Positions 3,691-10,338 of a DNA stretch of 64,000 nt are shown here, piece by piece. Numbering within the stretch: the stretch's first letter is position 1; each line of letters begins with the position of its first letter. Made by a program: the position numbers and the translations under genes. The notes beneath the pieces are model-generated. The model saw nothing but the letters and a program-made list of their open reading frames with translations. It searched no databases and was not told the origin of the DNA. This DNA comes from Acidisarcina sp. (lineage in GTDB: Bacteria; Acidobacteriota; Terriglobia; Terriglobales; Acidobacteriaceae): the NCBI GenBank assembly GCA_035539175.1, contig DATLIY010000004.1, positions 1-64,000 on the forward strand. Reading direction: 5' to 3'.

Positions 3691-4197
3691 ATGGCACAGC
3701 TTGAGGCTATACAAGGTGACATTACCCGGCTGGCGGTAGATGCAATCGTCAATGCAGCAAATACCTCCCTGCTGGGAGGAGGCGGAGTCGATGGCGCAAT
3801 TCATCGTGCCGCGGGGCCGGAGCTGCTCGTTGCCTGCCGCAAGCTGCATGGCTGTATAACCGGCGACGCTAAGGCGACGCCAGGGTTTCATCTGCCTGCC
3901 AGATGGATCTTTCACGCCGTAGGCCCGGTATGGAGAGGTGGCGATCATCAGGAGGATGACCTGCTGGCAAGTTGCTATCGGCGCTCCCTCGAGCTCGCCC
4001 GCGAGCACGAGGTGAAGTCCATCGGGTTTCCTGCGATCAGCACCGGGGTTTATGGCTTTCCTTCCGAGCGGGCGGCGAAGATTGCCTTCGATACCGTGAA
4101 GAAGTTTGCGGAGCCGAATGGTGTGGAGACGGTCAAGTTCGTCTGCTTTGACAGCGGCACTTTGTCGATCTATCGAGATCTGCTTCATGCTGCTTGA
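3691..4197 (+). CDS. macrodomain ADP-ribose hydrolase (YmdB/O-acetyl-ADP-ribose deacetylase type)
   Basis: A 168-residue single-domain macro protein. Visible hallmarks are GDITRL near residues 9-14, the NAAN motif at 21-24, [14 protein letters not shown] with Asp34, and the phosphate-binding [10 protein letters not shown] loop at 115-124. In the MacroD/YmdB class the equivalents of Asn24 and Asp34 are needed for hydrolysis of O-acetyl-ADP-ribose or mono-ADP-ribosyl-Asp/Glu, and both are kept. The start is supported by AAGGAG upstream. It follows the isomerase gene by 90 bases and precedes an MFS gene by 103, with no clear functional link to either. Substrate preference (metabolite, protein or nucleic-acid ADP-ribose) is open. 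Confidence 0.9.
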
Positions 4198-4300: not shown

Positions 4301-5533
4301 TTGCAAACCCGGCTGACCAATCACTCGACAAGGAGCACGTTAAGCCAGATCCCCGCCGGCGTCTGGGTACTCGGCTGCGTCAGCCTGCTGATGGATATCT
4401 CTTCGGAGATGATCCACAGCCTGTTGCCGCTCTTCATGGTCACGGTTCTGGGAGCCAGCGCCGTGGGTGTCGGCCTGATCGAAGGTCTGGCCGAATCCAC
4501 CGCTCTGATCGTCAAGGTCTTCTCCGGTGTGTTCAGCGATTATCTCGGCAAGCGCAAGGCGCTGGCTGTACTTGGCTATGCCCTTGGCGCATTCACAAAG
4601 CCGTTATTCGCGATTGCGCCTACTCTGGGCGTCGTCCTTACCGCGCGTCTTCTGGATAGGGTCGGCAAGGGGGTGCGCGGTGCGCCACGGGACGCCCTGG
4701 TTGCGGATATTACGCCTCCGAATCTGCGCGGCGCGGCATTCGGCCTTCGCCAGTCTCTCGATACCGTCGGAGCATTTCTCGGTCCCTTGCTGGCCGTTGG
4801 ACTGATGTTGCTATGGGCCAATAACTTTCGCGCTGTGTTCTGGGTGGCCGTGATTCCTGGCCTGATGTCGGTCTCCCTGCTTTTCTTTGGCCTGCGCGAA
4901 CCGGAGCATCGCCAGGCGGAAAATCGCACGAACCCAATCCGGCGGGAAAATCTGAAGCGTCTCGGAGTTGCCTACTGGTGGGTAGTCGGCATTGGCGCAA
5001 TCTTCACTCTGGCCCGGTTCAGTGAGGCGTTTCTCGTTCTGCGCGCACGGCAGGGCGGAGTTCCCCTTGCCCTCGTGCCGCTCGTTATGGTGGCGATGAA
5101 TGTGATCTACGCCCTGACGGCTTATCCATTCGGCAAGCTCTCGGACAAGATGAGCCATGCAAAGCTATTGGCGCTGGGATTGGTTGTGCTGATAGCCTCC
5201 GATCTGATCCTGGCCATCAACGATCACTGGCTCTCCGTTTTAGCCGGAGTTGCCCTGTGGGGCGTTCATATGGGCATGACGCAAGGTCTGCTCGCGACCA
5301 TGGTGGCAGATACAGCGCCGGCCGATCTGCGCGGCACGGCATACGGATTCTTCAACCTGATGAGCGGGTTTGCCCTGCTGCTGTCGAGCGTGCTGGCAGG
5401 ATGGTTGTGGGACAGGCTTGGTGCTTCCTTCACCTTCTACGCAGGTGCGGGATTTTGCGTGATGGCGCTGGCGGGCCTGTCCACCGGCGTTCGAACCATG
5501 CGTGCGACCAGGAAGGATGACTCCGCAGCATAA
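4301..5533 (+). CDS. MFS transporter
   Basis: A 410-residue major facilitator superfamily protein with about 12 hydrophobic segments and a central hydrophilic loop near residue 210. The loop between helices 2 and 3 carries FSDYLGKRKAL, close to the MFS signature (G-x3-D-x2-G-x-R-x2). Cationic motifs DRVGKGVRGAPRDAL and AFGLRQSLDTVGAFLGPLL are typical of a bacterial MFS subgroup of unknown substrate. Translation appears to begin at TTG 4301, preceded by GGAG eight bases upstream, and no ATG is suitably placed. It may be a drug or metabolite exporter, but the substrate is not deducible. It is separated by 109 bases from the sigma-factor gene. Confidence 0.88.
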   Translation: MQTRLTNHSTRSTLSQIPAGVWVLGCVSLLMDISSEMIHSLLPLFMVTVLGASAVGVGLIEGLAESTALIVKVFSGVFSDYLGKRKALAVLGYALGAFTKPLFAIAPTLGVVLTARLLDRVGKGVRGAPRDALVADITPPNLRGAAFGLRQSLDTVGAFLGPLLAVGLMLLWANNFRAVFWVAVIPGLMSVSLLFFGLREPEHRQAENRTNPIRRENLKRLGVAYWWVVGIGAIFTLARFSEAFLVLRARQGGVPLALVPLVMVAMNVIYALTAYPFGKLSDKMSHAKLLALGLVVLIASDLILAINDHWLSVLAGVALWGVHMGMTQGLLATMVADTAPADLRGTAYGFFNLMSGFALLLSSVLAGWLWDRLGASFTFYAGAGFCVMALAGLSTGVRTMRATRKDDSAA

Positions 5534-5642
5534 GGAGACCGGTTGCCATTCCAGGCACTGAGAAGATCCTTAGGCACTCAGAAGTTTGTGCAGCCTGGTA
5601 TACACTTGTGGCAATTCTGACGCGCTTTCCGAGGTACGTGCC

Positions 5643-6218
5643 TTGCAATTCCAGACCTTCGATGCGGCATACATCAAGAAGCTGCAGGAGGGAGATGCCC
5701 GGACACAAGAGCATTTTGTCAGGTACTTCAGTGAGCTGATTCACCTTAAGCTGCGTTCTCGCCTGAAATCCCGCGATGCGATCGAGGATGTGTGTCAGGA
5801 GACCTTTACCCGCGTTCTGACGGCCTTGCGTAGCGAGGGAGCAATCCGCCAGCCCGAACGCCTGGGAGCCTACGTCAACTCCGTTTGCAACAATGTCCTG
5901 CTGGAGTACTACCGCGCGGGAAGCCGCAGTGACCCTATAGACGAGGTGACCGAGGCCACCGTTGCGTCGCCGGAACCGAATGCTCTCAATATTTTGCTCT
6001 CAAAAGACTCTGAGCGCGTGGTGCGGCGGATTCTCGCTGAGATGCCTTCGCGCGACCTGAAACTGCTACGAGGAGTTTTACTGGAGGAAAGAGATAAGGA
6101 AGATGTTTGCAGGGAACTTGGAGTTGACCGCGAGTATCTAAGGGTTCTCATCCACCGTGCCAAACTCTCGTTCAAAAATGTGTATCTCAAAAGGTTTGGT
6201 GCGGGCAGACCCTATTAA
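5643..6218 (+). CDS. ECF-type RNA polymerase sigma factor
   Basis: A 191-residue sigma-70-family protein with region 2 (DAIEDVCQETFTRVL, residues ~45-60) and a region-4 helix-turn-helix (EERDKEDVCRELGVDREYL followed by RVLIHRAKLSFK). The longer frame opens at TTG 5586, but TTG 5643 has GAGGT at good spacing and gives a normal N-terminus (MQFQTFDAAYIKKL), so it is preferred. It is followed 73 bases later by a zinc-binding membrane anti-sigma factor, the usual partner. The two probably form a switch controlling the downstream unknown gene and the TPR-CHAT gene on the same strand. The signal and the target promoter are unknown. Confidence 0.9.
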   Translation: MQFQTFDAAYIKKLQEGDARTQEHFVRYFSELIHLKLRSRLKSRDAIEDVCQETFTRVLTALRSEGAIRQPERLGAYVNSVCNNVLLEYYRAGSRSDPIDEVTEATVASPEPNALNILLSKDSERVVRRILAEMPSRDLKLLRGVLLEERDKEDVCRELGVDREYLRVLIHRAKLSFKNVYLKRFGAGRPY

Positions 6219-6291
6219 GTTAGCTGAAATCGCCCGGTTCGCTGTCACGATTTACCTATCTCTACGCACTATTCCACCGAGGCTGGACGAA

Positions 6292-6999
6292 ATGGACCAT
6301 CGGGACGTCGCAAGAAGTTCCATTATCGAAAAATATCTGCTCAAGGAGCTGTCTCCCGAAGAATGCGACGAGTTTGAGGCTCACTTCTTTGATTGCGAAG
6401 AGTGTGCACAGGATTTGCGCCTGACGGATGCTTTTCTTGAGCAGGTCCGGAGAGAACTGAAGATCCCTCTGGAGCAGGTGGCGCCGCAAGCGTTGGAACA
6501 AGGGCAGGCATCAAGACAAGGGAAAGGCCTTCCATCCTTCCTGCGCCCGGTCTGGTTGATTCCAGCGCTGGCCGTCCTGCTGTTGGTGATCGTTTATCAG
6601 AATCTCTTCCTGTATCCCGGATTGAAGCACCAGGTTGCCACCCTTGGAAAACCGGAGATTCTGTCCTCGCTCTCCCTGGTGAATGGCGTCAGTCGAGGGG
6701 GTTCAATCCCTGCTATGGAGGTTCGGAACCTCCAGCCATTTCTGCTGCAGGTGGATATCCCGGGCGAGGAGGGCTTTTCAAACTATCTGTGCTCCCTGTA
6801 TTCTCCGTCCGGAAAGCTGCTCTGGCAAAGTGAGGTTTCGAAGGATCAAGCCAGGGATTCTGTTTCGATTCGTGTTCTTCCCACGGAGGAGATGAATGGA
6901 CTGAACCTCCTCCTGGTGCAGGGAGTCTCAGTGTCGGGCCAGCGAAAGACCCCAGTTGATCTGGTGCGCTATCGCTTTCAATTGACGTTCCAGAAGTGA
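6292..6999 (+). CDS. membrane-anchored zinc-finger anti-sigma factor
   Basis: A 235-residue protein. The N-terminal ~45 residues form a zinc-binding anti-sigma (ZAS/zf-HC2) domain with H31-x3-C35-x2-C38 (AHFFDCEECAQDL). A linker leads to one transmembrane helix at about 86-104 and a ~130-residue C-terminal, probably periplasmic domain. ATG 6292 was chosen because it starts at the conserved pre-domain sequence and has GAGG about ten bases upstream. The frame stays open upstream but overlaps the sigma gene. It is expected to hold the preceding sigma factor inactive at the membrane until a signal releases it. The C-terminal domain (segments PAMEVRNLQPFLLQVDIP and NYLCSLYSPSGKLLW) could be the sensor, but I recognise no known domain there. 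Confidence 0.88.
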   Translation: MDHRDVARSSIIEKYLLKELSPEECDEFEAHFFDCEECAQDLRLTDAFLEQVRRELKIPLEQVAPQALEQGQASRQGKGLPSFLRPVWLIPALAVLLLVIVYQNLFLYPGLKHQVATLGKPEILSSLSLVNGVSRGGSIPAMEVRNLQPFLLQVDIPGEEGFSNYLCSLYSPSGKLLWQSEVSKDQARDSVSIRVLPTEEMNGLNLLLVQGVSVSGQRKTPVDLVRYRFQLTFQK

Positions 7000-7021
7000 A
7001 TCCAGCAAGGCCGGAGAAACC

Positions 7022-7834
7022 ATGGAAGCTAGCAAGAGAGTCCACTACTACCACGCTGATGCCAGTTCTTTCGGGGGAGTTCTTGAGCACCCCGTAAAAA
7101 AGGTCGTCCCCTCGCAAGCTGCCGTCTCACTTCCTGCTGCCGGAGGCTATACCTCCACGCGGTCCGGAGCCTTTAATTTCGAAGAAATAGCCTCGTGCGG
7201 CGGGGCGTTCACGCATGCCTCCGGGGGCATGAGCCTGAAAAACGGCGCGTGGACCACTCTTGTCACCTCAGCCGTTGAAAATTTGAATATTCTAGAGGTG
7301 GTTACAGCGGATCGTGTCGTTGCCCAGATATCCATTGAGCATCCAGTGGAAGGGCACGATCCCAAGGTGACCTTTGTAGGCTCTCACTTTCAGAATCTGC
7401 GCATTGGTGGTGTTCCGGTCGAGCCCGCAATGAACCTGGGGCTGCTGACGCCGGAAACAGGGTATCCGGGGTGTCCCTGGACCCGGCACGAAGGATTCTT
7501 GAAGAGGGTGCGGGATCAGCATCACCAGAGAACCAAAGGCAAGAAGGTTCCAGCCTGGGCAGTCGAACGCTATGCCTGGGTAGAGTCGCAACAGGGAATC
7601 GAGGAAAGAGGCCACGTCGTATGTTCTCTCGTCGACAGCTTGAAGGGAGAGATTCCCGGGAAGACCTTCGGGCACGTGGTCGAGATCGAGGAGTTTGGCC
7701 GGTTCTTTTTTGGCGAGGTCGTCGTCGCCCAGGGGGGCTTCCAGTTGACCATGGTTCGCGCCGAACTGGGTTGCGCGGTGCACGGTTCTCTGGGTGTCGC
7801 CTCGGCTCGCGGAAACGGTCATACCTATCCATAG
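7022..7834 (+). CDS. conserved-looking protein of unknown function in the sigma/CHAT operon
   Basis: A 270-residue protein I cannot assign to a named family. A good ribosome site (GGAG, six bases upstream) precedes ATG 7022, and it begins 22 bases after the anti-sigma stop, so it is almost certainly in the same transcript. There is no signal peptide or membrane helix. The first ~140 residues are rich in beta-forming segments (GAWTTLVTSAVENLNILEVV, DRVVAQISIEHP, VTFVGSHFQNLRIGGVPVEP), resembling hypothetical proteins I associate with acidobacteria. A middle basic part (about 155-185) and a beta-rich C-terminal part (about 205-255) follow. Its 3' end probably overlaps the CHAT gene start. It could be a CHAT substrate, regulator or binding partner, by inference from position only. 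Confidence 0.75.
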   Translation: MEASKRVHYYHADASSFGGVLEHPVKKVVPSQAAVSLPAAGGYTSTRSGAFNFEEIASCGGAFTHASGGMSLKNGAWTTLVTSAVENLNILEVVTADRVVAQISIEHPVEGHDPKVTFVGSHFQNLRIGGVPVEPAMNLGLLTPETGYPGCPWTRHEGFLKRVRDQHHQRTKGKKVPAWAVERYAWVESQQGIEERGHVVCSLVDSLKGEIPGKTFGHVVEIEEFGRFFFGEVVVAQGGFQLTMVRAELGCAVHGSLGVASARGNGHTYP

Positions 7835-10338
7835 GATGTGCGATAGGACTTGCCGTCTTGGTGGCATGTTCCCTCGTCGGCTGCAATCGGGTTCCTCCTC
7901 CAAGCGCTTCAGCGATCTTCGAGCAGGTGCAGAAGCATCTACTTGCCGGCAATCTGGCCGTAGCGGAGCGCGAGGCTCATAAGGCCCAGGCGCAATTCCT
8001 GGGCTCGGAGCCGGAGTGGGCCTGGAAGTTTCGCAGCCTTGAGGCAAAAGCGGTCATCCTGCAGGGGCGAAGCCAGGATGCCCTCAAGCTGTGGACCGAT
8101 CCCTTGCCAGCGTCCTTGGAAAATGGGGATGTAGCCATAGAGCGCGATATGAATCGGGCGCTGGCCTGGGCTCGCATGGGCCAGTTTCCCGAGGCATCGG
8201 ACGCGCTCGCGCATGCCCAGAAGCTTGTCGATCAGAATCATTCCCCCCTGCGTGCCGAGCTTTTGAGCACTCGCGGGGTTGTCGATATCGAAAAAGAGAA
8301 TCTGGACGACGCAGAATCCATGTTCCGGCAGGGACTGGACCTCGCCAGGCAACAAGACAATCGCTTTCTGGAGTCGACGCTCGATCTGAATATTGGCGTA
8401 GTTGCTCTCCACCGGGAGCATTATGATGAGGCGCTTTACTGGTCTCATGCTGCCTCCAAGCTGGCCCGCACCCTGGAGGCCGGGTTAATCCTCGAAAAAG
8501 CCCTGGCAAACGAGGGATGGGCGTACTACAAACTGGGCGACTTTGAGCGCTCGCTGGCAAATTCGCAGGAGGCCGCGGCCCAGGCCGAAAAGCTGGGATC
8601 TGCATTCGATCAGGTTACCTGGCTCAACAATGCCGGCCTCGCAATGGTCGCACTCCACGACTACAAGGCCGCGGATACCTACTACAAGAAATCGCTCGCC
8701 ATTGCGGAAGCAACGCAGAACCGGGTGCAGATGCTCGACGCCCATGTAGCGCTGGCTTTCGAGATGCTGCAACAGGGGCAAGCCGCCTGGGCCAAGATTC
8801 ATATCGACCGTGCGCTCGATCTGGCGAAATCGGCAGGGAACCAGTCTGCGGAGCTTGAGCCGCTCTTTCTGAATGCTGTGCTTGCCACCCGTAACTCGCG
8901 ACTGGCCGATGCTGAAGCGACTCTGAAGACCGTCTACGCCTCTCCCAATTTGACGCCCTCGCTGCGCTGGGAGGTGGAGGATGCCTTCGCCAACGTGTAT
9001 GCGAGGCAGGAGGACCCGAAGAGAGCCGAAGAGTGGTATCTGCGATCGATCGCCACCTTCGAGAGTCAGCGATCCTCACTTCATGACGAAGAGAATCGCC
9101 TGCCATTCTTCTCCAATGCCAATCAGCTTTACCTGGATTATGTAGAGTTTCTGGTCAAGGCCGGCAAAGCTGCGCAGGCACTCCAGATCCTCGACGACAG
9201 TCGCGCGCGTACTCTGGAGGAGGGCTTGGGAATTACTCCTCGGAGCAGCACCGCCAGAGCGGGCAAGTCTCTTGAGCAGGAATCACGCCGAATCGAGCCG
9301 CGAATCATCGCAAAATCGCTCGACGGCACCGTGCTGGAGTACCTTCTAGGTCCCAACCGCTCCTACCTATGGGCGGTTACGCCCACGGCGATTCGCCTCT
9401 TTAATCTGCCTGGACAATCTGAGATCGACACCCATGTGGAGGAGTATCAGCGGGAGATTACAAATTCAACCGATGTTCTGGCGAAGCACGCCGCCGCAGG
9501 GGAGTGGCTTTACGCCAATCTTGTAGCTCCCGCCCAGGCGCTGATTCCGCGGTACTCCAGGGTCTTCCTGATTCCTGACGGAAGCCTGAATAAGGTCAAC
9601 TTCGAGACATTTCTGACGCCCGATCCAAGTCCGCACTTTTGGCTGGAAGACGCCACTCTGACGACAGCGAATTCACTGCGGCTCTTGAGAACCTTCCGCT
9701 CGCATCCTGCCAGGACGAAGACGCCGAATCTGCTCCTGATCGGCGATCCGATACCCCCCGCGGAGGAGTTTGCCGATCTGCCGAATGGACCGGAGGAGAT
9801 CGCCAGTATCTCGAGCCATTTTTCTGCCGGGAACCGCAAAGTTCTGACAAAAGAGCAGGCCTCTCCGCAGGGATATTTTGCAAATCAGCCCGGCCAGTAT
9901 CAATTCATTCACTTTGTTGCGCATGGAATCGCCAGCCAACTGAGTCCGCTGGATTCCGCGGTGGTGCTGTCGCGTACCTCCGATCGCCCCGACGACTTCA
10001 AGCTTTACGCGAGAAACATCGTCCATTTTCCTCTCCGCTCAGAGCTTGTTACGATCTCTGCCTGCTACGGCTCGGGTACGAAGGCCTATTCCGGAGAGGG
10101 TCTGGTCGGACTCTCCTGGGCCTTTCTTCGAGCGGGCTCGCATAACGTCATTGGAGCGATGTGGGCGGTCAGCGATGCCTCAACTCCCCAGTTGATGGAT
10201 CGACTCTACAAATCGCTCGAAAAGGGTACTCCCCCGGACGTAGCCCTGCGCGAAGCCAAACTTTCGTTGGCGCACTCTACGGACATCTACCGCAAGCCGC
10301 TGTATTGGGGAGCCTTCCAACTTTACGCCGGCGCATAA
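7771..10338 (+). CDS. lipoprotein-like TPR-CHAT protease
   Basis: About 855 residues. The N-terminus has an RKR cluster, a hydrophobic stretch and an LVGC lipobox, so it is probably a lipoprotein facing the periplasm. Residues ~50-450 contain repeated TPR-like helical pairs (for example KALANEGWAYYKLGDFERSL and AMVALHDYKAADTYYKKSL). The C-terminal CHAT domain (about 560-855) shows the caspase-like dyad His718 (HFVAHG) and Cys765 (ISACYG), plus the family segments GEGLVGLSWAFLRAGSHNVI and YWGAFQLY. The start is uncertain. No ATG fits; TTG 7771 gives a 38-residue signal region and overlaps the preceding gene by 64 bases. The frame is open back to 7471, but there the upstream gene is clearly the coding frame. 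CHAT proteases are activated in several immune and signalling systems. The substrate is unknown. Confidence 0.85.
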   Translation: MRGARFSGCRLGSRKRSYLSIGCAIGLAVLVACSLVGCNRVPPPSASAIFEQVQKHLLAGNLAVAEREAHKAQAQFLGSEPEWAWKFRSLEAKAVILQGRSQDALKLWTDPLPASLENGDVAIERDMNRALAWARMGQFPEASDALAHAQKLVDQNHSPLRAELLSTRGVVDIEKENLDDAESMFRQGLDLARQQDNRFLESTLDLNIGVVALHREHYDEALYWSHAASKLARTLEAGLILEKALANEGWAYYKLGDFERSLANSQEAAAQAEKLGSAFDQVTWLNNAGLAMVALHDYKAADTYYKKSLAIAEATQNRVQMLDAHVALAFEMLQQGQAAWAKIHIDRALDLAKSAGNQSAELEPLFLNAVLATRNSRLADAEATLKTVYASPNLTPSLRWEVEDAFANVYARQEDPKRAEEWYLRSIATFESQRSSLHDEENRLPFFSNANQLYLDYVEFLVKAGKAAQALQILDDSRARTLEEGLGITPRSSTARAGKSLEQESRRIEPRIIAKSLDGTVLEYLLGPNRSYLWAVTPTAIRLFNLPGQSEIDTHVEEYQREITNSTDVLAKHAAAGEWLYANLVAPAQALIPRYSRVFLIPDGSLNKVNFETFLTPDPSPHFWLEDATLTTANSLRLLRTFRSHPARTKTPNLLLIGDPIPPAEEFADLPNGPEEIASISSHFSAGNRKVLTKEQASPQGYFANQPGQYQFIHFVAHGIASQLSPLDSAVVLSRTSDRPDDFKLYARNIVHFPLRSELVTISACYGSGTKAYSGEGLVGLSWAFLRAGSHNVIGAMWAVSDASTPQLMDRLYKSLEKGTPPDVALREAKLSLAHSTDIYRKPLYWGAFQLYAGA

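Follow-up and report, generated by a model that had tools for sequence, protein, structure and literature searches.

The first 64,000 nucleotides of contig DATLIY010000004.1 from Acidisarcina sp. (assembly GCA_035539175.1), hereafter the window, carry four consecutive genes on one strand that encode an extracytoplasmic function (ECF) sigma factor, a zinc-finger anti-sigma factor (ZAS), a 270-residue protein here named p3, and a protein joining TPR repeats to a CHAT domain. These four genes form a conserved acidobacterial module. From sequence comparison we hold, with moderate confidence, that a sigma switch would turn on the membrane-anchored CHAT protein and p3 as one signalling module. To our knowledge, CHAT proteases have been described chiefly in cytoplasmic immunity, with few natural substrates identified; the module links one such protein, across a phylum, with a sigma/anti-sigma pair for which a promoter and target genes are predicted, and it may bring a caspase-like enzyme into the set of proteases that serve envelope-stress signalling. 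An earlier note on this DNA had recorded the four genes, their order, the His/Cys dyad and an LVGC motif, an observation that is confirmed; its interpretation, in which the CHAT protease cleaves the anti-sigma factor or has its expression released through it, is partly supported.

Conservation of the four-gene module

To describe conservation, 61 loci were fetched from 60 other genomes and searched with profiles of the four genes, and 300 genomes drawn from the family served for presence counts. Sigma, anti-sigma, p3 and CHAT genes occur together, in the same order, in 59 of the 60 fetched genomes as well as in the window, and the exception (G160) has its CHAT gene on another contig (L097). 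The earlier note had let its reading stand or fall with a conserved neighbourhood in related genomes, and upon making this comparison we found the four-gene module kept across relatives. Within the family sample, 102 genomes carry p3 and 103 the cognate sigma orthologue (E ≤ 1e-22), with 101 genomes common to both sets. G202 carries the sigma gene in two copies, in a different context and with no p3, and G234 carries p3 without the sigma gene on a contig that starts 355 bases before p3. Among p3-positive genomes that were not fetched, a CHAT match lies near p3 on the same contig in 39 of 41 (coordinates read by eye); no nearby CHAT match was seen in G204 and G222, both highly fragmented. At two loci of genus g50 (L120 and L121), the sigma gene ahead of the anti-sigma gene is the second-scoring copy; another sigma gene of this family, with a better score, is encoded downstream of CHAT on the opposite strand, and these loci lack the promoter word described below. 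Broken copies, whether through assembly error or decay, were also seen, with the CHAT frame split in L079 (G017) and an in-frame TAG in the p3 gene of L094 (G286).

The module extends beyond the family. Of 396 genomes from across the phylum, 23 carry p3; seven of the 23 belong to other families, and eight loci were fetched from these seven. All four genes are present in five of these distant loci (L171, L172, L174, L176 and L178); CHAT is cut by a contig end in L174, so that four other families have the complete module and a fifth has it with a partial CHAT gene. Contig ends also cut L173 and L175, and L177 shows only p3 and CHAT.

As a control, 20 further loci were fetched, 18 of which hold CHAT proteins outside the lineage of the four-gene cassette, including the second CHAT protein of the window's genome. 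When these 18 were searched with the profiles of the cassette, only 2 (L125 and L126) gave weak sigma and/or anti-sigma matches near CHAT; some of the 18 are short contigs, and L143 has no sequence upstream of CHAT. Reading the upstream frames of 15 of these loci by eye gave one possible ECF-like protein (L134). CHAT proteins in general are not associated with a sigma/anti-sigma pair in this way. The second TPR-CHAT gene of the window's genome (L124, 5751–8387; G000:C7) has no cassette-type sigma or anti-sigma gene adjoining it. Three other CHAT loci from different genera (L132, L133 and L136) have an ABC-transporter-like frame near CHAT, two of them also with a PAS-like sensor frame (by eye), an arrangement that is possibly another CHAT module.

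Predicted proteins and the start of the CHAT gene

The window's sigma factor matches TIGR02937 over residues 22–175 and has regions 2 and 4 and no others, with Sigma70_r2 exactly at the Pfam cut-off and region 4 weak by Pfam (E 0.13); a TTG or GTG start lies at the equivalent place in most loci. The anti-sigma factor combines a zinc motif with one transmembrane segment: H31, C35 and C38 are invariant in the 32 aligned members, zf-HC2 matches 31 of these, and a single hydrophobic segment is present in 59 of 61 proteins. On inspection by eye, its C-terminal domain looks to be of beta type. Among solved chains the anti-sigma profile matches 3hug_B (E 5e-5), and from what is known of the family we infer that it holds the sigma factor at the membrane.

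The CHAT protein is predicted to be a caspase-like protease. The dyad stands in all 60 intact rows of the alignment, with the His in 60 of 61 rows overall; the exception is the broken CHAT of L079, whose aligned Cys is an alignment artefact. A hydrophobic anchor was scored in all 61 proteins (mean window score 2.11, lowest 1.16), and in 54 of 61 the flank before it carries more positive charge than the flank after it, a bias that predicts an N-in, C-out topology with the TPR and catalytic parts facing the periplasm. On this predicted topology, the catalytic part and the anti-sigma C-terminal domain share one side of the membrane, as the earlier note had supposed. The lipobox it reported is present in the window (LVGC) and is not universal, a loose lipobox-like pattern fitting 43 of 61 CHAT proteins. 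The 18 without the pattern all have an anchor scoring at least 1.6; a plausible lipobox Cys can be made out by eye in two of them (L111 and L114), and 16 of the 18 fall in one clade of 18 in a quick tree of 65 CHAT proteins that left out L079. This tree mixes genera, pointing to transfer or old duplication. Compared with PDB sequences, the full protein gave TPR-type matches only, among the matches listed (11; 60 of 135), and the CHAT part alone gave nothing meaningful; a structure model (pLDDT 49.7) was confident mainly in the TPR part.

The CHAT gene most likely starts inside p3, at ATG 7621 and not at TTG 7771. In the window, ATG 7621 is preceded by the purine-rich AGGAAAGAGG and gives a dyad at His768/Cys815 and a 214-nt overlap with p3; TTG 7771 would give 855 residues, and the numbering His718/Cys765 used previously is right if the protein begins there. 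Across relatives, all 43 loci whose anchor is within 60 nt of the p3 stop have CHAT in one and the same phase relative to p3 (−1), and in 40 of these 43 the CHAT frame stays open through the final part of p3, compared to 2.8 expected from synonymous shuffles (the frame is not open in L091, L100 and L118). This test selects loci by distance alone, an earlier count of 42 of 42 having been conditional on openness, and leaves out L094, L108 and L117. At loci with wider gaps, the frame is still open in 6 of 14 (0.27 expected). The p3 motif ‘CSLV’ marks the start: among the 40 overlapping loci with that Cys, the CHAT frame reads ATG in 27, GTG in 7, TTG in 3 and CTG in 3, and in a further five overlapping loci the Cys position is taken by another residue or falls in a gap. 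The wobble base A that makes the ATG is used in 25 of 38 loci (8.0 expected; L087 was additionally left out), and in 14 of 25 when Glu, Gln and Lys are set aside (2.8 expected); the loci in the overlap and start-site counts are related, hence not independent trials. Starting at ATG 7621 places a basic tail of ~70 residues, predicted cytoplasmic, ahead of the anchor, and with such a tail it is uncertain whether the protein is processed as a simple lipoprotein; the region before LVGC is short only from TTG 7771.

Two other explanations of the junction were considered and set aside. A start at TTG 7771 is possible in the window, but the equivalent site in relatives is often CTG or a non-NTG codon. 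A programmed −1 frameshift yielding a p3::CHAT fusion, prompted by the many loci without ATG, GTG or TTG near the anchor, was rejected because there is no common slippery heptamer and a conserved start, usually ATG, lies upstream inside p3.

Described in the earlier note as unknown, p3 is not wholly so: its residues 32–140 match the first two thirds of the choice-of-anchor P family (NF040603) just over the curated cut-off (27.8 bits against 27), and its C-terminal part also resembles that family by eye. Counted by E-value and not by individual cut-off, 29 of the 32 aligned members match the family at E ≤ 0.01. Choice-of-anchor P proteins would, as the family name implies, be secreted with an anchor or signal peptide, and a strong member in a relative (L179) starts with an apparent signal peptide; in contrast, none of the 61 p3 orthologues has an N-terminal hydrophobic stretch, and an internal hydrophobic window scoring at least 1.6 occurs in 11 of 61. 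The p3 core is conserved in two parts, with an insert of variable length between residues ~140 and ~200. Neither the sequence nor the profile met a meaningful match among solved PDB chains, and structure prediction was of low confidence (pLDDT 32.7).

A promoter word shared with candidate target genes

Promoter-like elements lie on both sides of the sigma gene. Upstream, mostly 33–42 nt before the start, a TA-N-A-N-T element occurs in 47 of 61 loci, compared to 6.5 in shuffles, and is often preceded by TG, resembling a sigma-70 extended −10. At the sigma/anti-sigma junction, TGAAACGNTT is followed by CACTAT 16 nt after ACG; this element scores at least 12 in 40 of 61 loci (0.23 in shuffles), and the spacing is 16 in 34 of 44 sites scoring at least 11. 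A distant-family locus (L178) also has a full-scoring junction site, and scanning six other distant loci gave none. Given that the motif was derived from cassette loci, a genome-wide scan serves as the independent test. The exact word GAAACGWTT-N13-CACTAT has 60 sites in the 300 genomes, compared to 1 for its reversal, and 42 of the 44 genomes with an exact site carry p3 (102 of 300 overall; Fisher P-value = 1e-20, uncorrected for genome size as are the two tests that follow). Upon dropping genomes whose only sites lie upstream of the cassette, 28 of 30 carry p3 (P-value = 1e-12), and upon also dropping G006, G192 and G195, which have other sites beside the cassette, 25 of 27 do (P-value = 4e-11). 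Position and co-occurrence with the module suggest that the word is the target of the cognate sigma factor; its copies outside the cassette fall almost only in genomes with the module, so the sigma factor probably transcribes anti-sigma, p3 and CHAT. The expectation that ECF promoters would be found upstream of the sigma gene was borne out in some relatives, with a site scoring at least 13 within 600 nt upstream in 18 of 61 loci (0.05 expected), and not in the window, where the element lies downstream of the sigma gene. A site scoring at least 13 also lies within 200 nt behind CHAT in seven loci (L066, L070, L075, L076, L109, L114 and L123; a count made without a shuffle control).

With the promoter word, the targets in cultured acidobacteria become a guide to what the module is for. 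Forty stretches were fetched for this purpose (38 other sites, the second match in the window's own genome, and the sigma upstream region of G149), and 20 candidate genes picked by eye, then 7 more proteins, were compared with Pfam. Behind the site in G118 lie the type VI secretion system (T6SS) genes TssB, TssC and Hcp, with near-identical frames in its relative G141; in coordinates, the word precedes a tssB, tssC, hcp sheath operon at L225 (401–3350) and at L227, both of genus g70. Other sites are followed by an MbnB/TglH/ChrH-type (MNIO-type) enzyme in G051, a phosphoesterase in G215, a trypsin-like protein in G133, a heme-binding protein in G244 (NCBIfam) and a weak carboxypeptidase-regulatory-like match in G192. 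The MNIO locus (L237, 1377–2915), which has a short frame ahead of the enzyme, is a possible peptide-modification locus. Frames for a MliC lysozyme inhibitor lie behind the site just after CHAT in G256 and G149; by locus, MliC-type frames follow a promoter-like site directly downstream of the cassette at L070 and L075. The remaining candidate genes had no family match. The sigma factor thus probably also transcribes lineage-specific genes, such as the T6SS sheath operon and the lysozyme inhibitor, and these few target genes hint that the most likely purpose is to respond when the cell envelope is attacked or stressed.

A narrower version of this purpose, in which the module is a defence or counter-attack in interbacterial competition that senses lysozyme-like or T6SS attack and puts out T6SS and lysozyme inhibitor, is tentative and on balance doubtful. 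It draws on the sites ahead of tssB-tssC-hcp in two near-identical relatives, on the MliC-type frames after CHAT, on the phosphoesterase and MNIO-type enzyme, and on the enrichment of p3 in genomes with a T6SS (27 of 49 compared to 75 of 251 others, P-value = 9e-4; T6SS genomes were those with a VipA match at E < 1e-20, 7 weaker matches being dropped). However, each of these targets turned up in a single genus, a VipA match is missing from the window's genome, and the link with T6SS may simply follow genome size. In G256, moreover, 568 nt and an intervening 95-aa frame separate the MliC frame from the site, and the only PADLOC families matched were a generic TPR family and, weakly, PDC-M71B. 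For the weakness of the T6SS association and the missing VipA match, a general function of the module in T6SS was rejected.

Proposed mechanism and relation to known systems

On the favoured reading, the sigma gene would be read at a basal level from the upstream, housekeeping-type promoter, and its product would be held at the membrane by the zinc-finger anti-sigma factor until an envelope cue inactivates the latter. Freed sigma factor would then act at the TGAAACGNTT...CACTAT promoter to transcribe the anti-sigma, p3 and CHAT genes and, in many relatives, would transcribe its own gene and other genes as well, with newly made anti-sigma factor closing a negative feedback loop. CHAT would be the conserved output, a membrane-anchored protease with predicted periplasmic TPR and catalytic parts, and p3 would probably be its partner or substrate; the CHAT start inside p3 implies that the two are made together. 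That CHAT expression might be released via the anti-sigma factor, one half of the earlier proposal, gains support from the shared promoter element ahead of the anti-sigma-p3-CHAT genes.

Several observations weigh against this reading. The junction count was made on the same loci that defined the motif, which leaves genome-wide co-occurrence as the one result independent of that definition, and 21 of 61 loci score below 12 at the junction, including all five g50 cassette loci, while four g50 genomes (G133, G152, G210 and G222) have exact sites elsewhere, for which this reading offers no explanation. In the window itself the promoter matches less well, as a variant with a spacing of 17, and a relaxed search of its genome gave no convincing second target (2 matches, ~1.4 expected, reversed control 0), one match being the cassette and the other lying inside an open reading frame. 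Similar proteins recur behind different sites within genera g7 and g70 only. Furthermore, in the stretch fetched from G201 the sigma and anti-sigma genes have neither p3 nor CHAT near them, and the displaced CHAT gene of G160 has no site scoring at least 13 in its stretch.

Canonical ECF/ZAS promoters are autoregulated and have AAC in the −35 region, and regulated proteolysis is exemplified by RseA/DegS and RsiW. The module resembles RpoE-RseA-DegS and RsiW in pairing a sigma factor with a single-pass zinc-finger anti-sigma factor that has an extracytoplasmic domain, and in its predicted autoregulated promoter with AAC in that region; it differs in that the linked protease is a caspase-like CHAT protein whose role in a cascade is putative. 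The closest known systems are Craspase (Csx29/Csx30/CASP-sigma) and ECF54. In Craspase, of type III-E CRISPR, the TPR-CHAT protease Csx29 cuts Csx30, an inhibitor of the ECF-like CASP-sigma (PMC10028731; PMC9729208), and the likeness to Craspase/DiCASP lies in a TPR-CHAT protease encoded with an ECF-like sigma factor and a sigma-silencing protein (PMC10028731). In contrast, the four genes here include no Cas protein (no whole-genome Cas7-11 search was made), the inhibitor is a zinc-finger membrane anti-sigma factor, the CHAT protein has a membrane anchor and a predicted periplasmic location, the additional protein resembles choice-of-anchor P, and the module recurs over a phylum; neither a Cas7-11/gRAMP partner nor a Csx30 substrate was found at the four genes. 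For ECF54, a review describes a CHAT protein, subtilase or carboxypeptidase in the gene context and a proposed proteolytic control without an anti-sigma factor (PMC8999054). Compared by that described context, the likeness is an ECF sigma factor with a CHAT protein in its neighbourhood and the difference is that ZAS and p3 are constant members here, a ZAS gene adjoining the sigma gene in the window and all 60 fetched relatives. In the open-licence literature, searched by title and the start of the abstract, no description of the acidobacterial module was found.

By analogy with these systems, both the anti-sigma factor (DegS-like cleavage) and p3 (Csx30-like cleavage) are possible CHAT substrates, and by predicted side of the membrane the anti-sigma C-terminal domain seems right for CHAT and p3 wrong; the choice between them becomes directly testable. 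We consider it unlikely that CHAT acts as a site-1 protease, cutting the periplasmic domain of the anti-sigma factor as DegS does that of RseA and thereby freeing the sigma factor in positive feedback. The predicted shared side, the dyad in all intact copies and the co-inheritance of the genes would fit such a role, as would Craspase, in which a TPR-CHAT protease cuts an inhibitor and relieves inhibition of an ECF sigma factor (PMC10028731); yet G201 retains sigma and anti-sigma genes without CHAT nearby, G160 has CHAT elsewhere, and a protease made only after sigma release would need basal expression. We likewise doubt that CHAT cleaves p3 as Csx29 cleaves Csx30, with a p3 fragment as active output or sigma inhibitor. 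The conserved overlap would couple synthesis of the two proteins and the variable insert divides p3 into two parts, but p3, lacking a signal peptide, would lie on the opposite side of the membrane unless exported otherwise, its profile meets no meaningful match among solved chains (p3 and Csx30 were not compared directly), and its structure prediction failed. A bolder synthesis, speculative and rather improbable, would make CHAT the periplasmic activating protease of the ECF switch with p3 as a signal-less partner, a CRISPR-free, envelope-facing counterpart of Craspase commanding a fast-changing regulon of T6SS and lysozyme-inhibitor genes. Least probable is an operon of convenience, in which CHAT and p3 are sigma-regulated housekeeping envelope proteins with no proteolytic signalling role: p3 and CHAT do lie downstream of a predicted promoter like other targets, and other CHAT proteins in these genomes mostly have no sigma or anti-sigma gene beside them, but a sigma gene without p3 in just 2 of 103 genomes would be odd for mere targets, and all intact copies keep the dyad.

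Table 1 Features of the module in the window
Feature	Position	Strand	Evidence
Extended −10-like element (TGGTATACACTT) ahead of sigma gene	5596..5607	+	TA-N-A-N-T, common to 47/61 loci
ECF sigma factor, TTG start	5643..6218	+	TIGR02937, E 6e-14
Predicted ECF-type promoter (TGTCACGATTT ... CACTAT, spacing 17), upstream of anti-sigma, p3, CHAT	6243..6272	+	
ZAS anti-sigma factor	6292..6999	+	zf-HC2, E 1e-6; HxxxCxxC zinc motif; one hydrophobic segment
p3, 270 aa, choice-of-anchor-P-like, without signal peptide	7022..7834	+	NF040603
Membrane-anchored TPR-CHAT protein, 905 aa (most likely start)	7621..10338	+	CHAT PF12770, E 9e-52; TPR
CHAT hydrophobic anchor ending in lipobox LVGC	7828..7884	+	Cys codon 7882-7884
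Catalytic His of CHAT dyad (predicted protease)	9922..9924	+	Aligned rows
Catalytic Cys of CHAT dyad (predicted protease)	10063..10065	+	Aligned rows

Directly ahead of the module, the strand that carries it also encodes a macro-domain protein (3691–4197) and an MFS transporter (4301–5533), both identified by Pfam.

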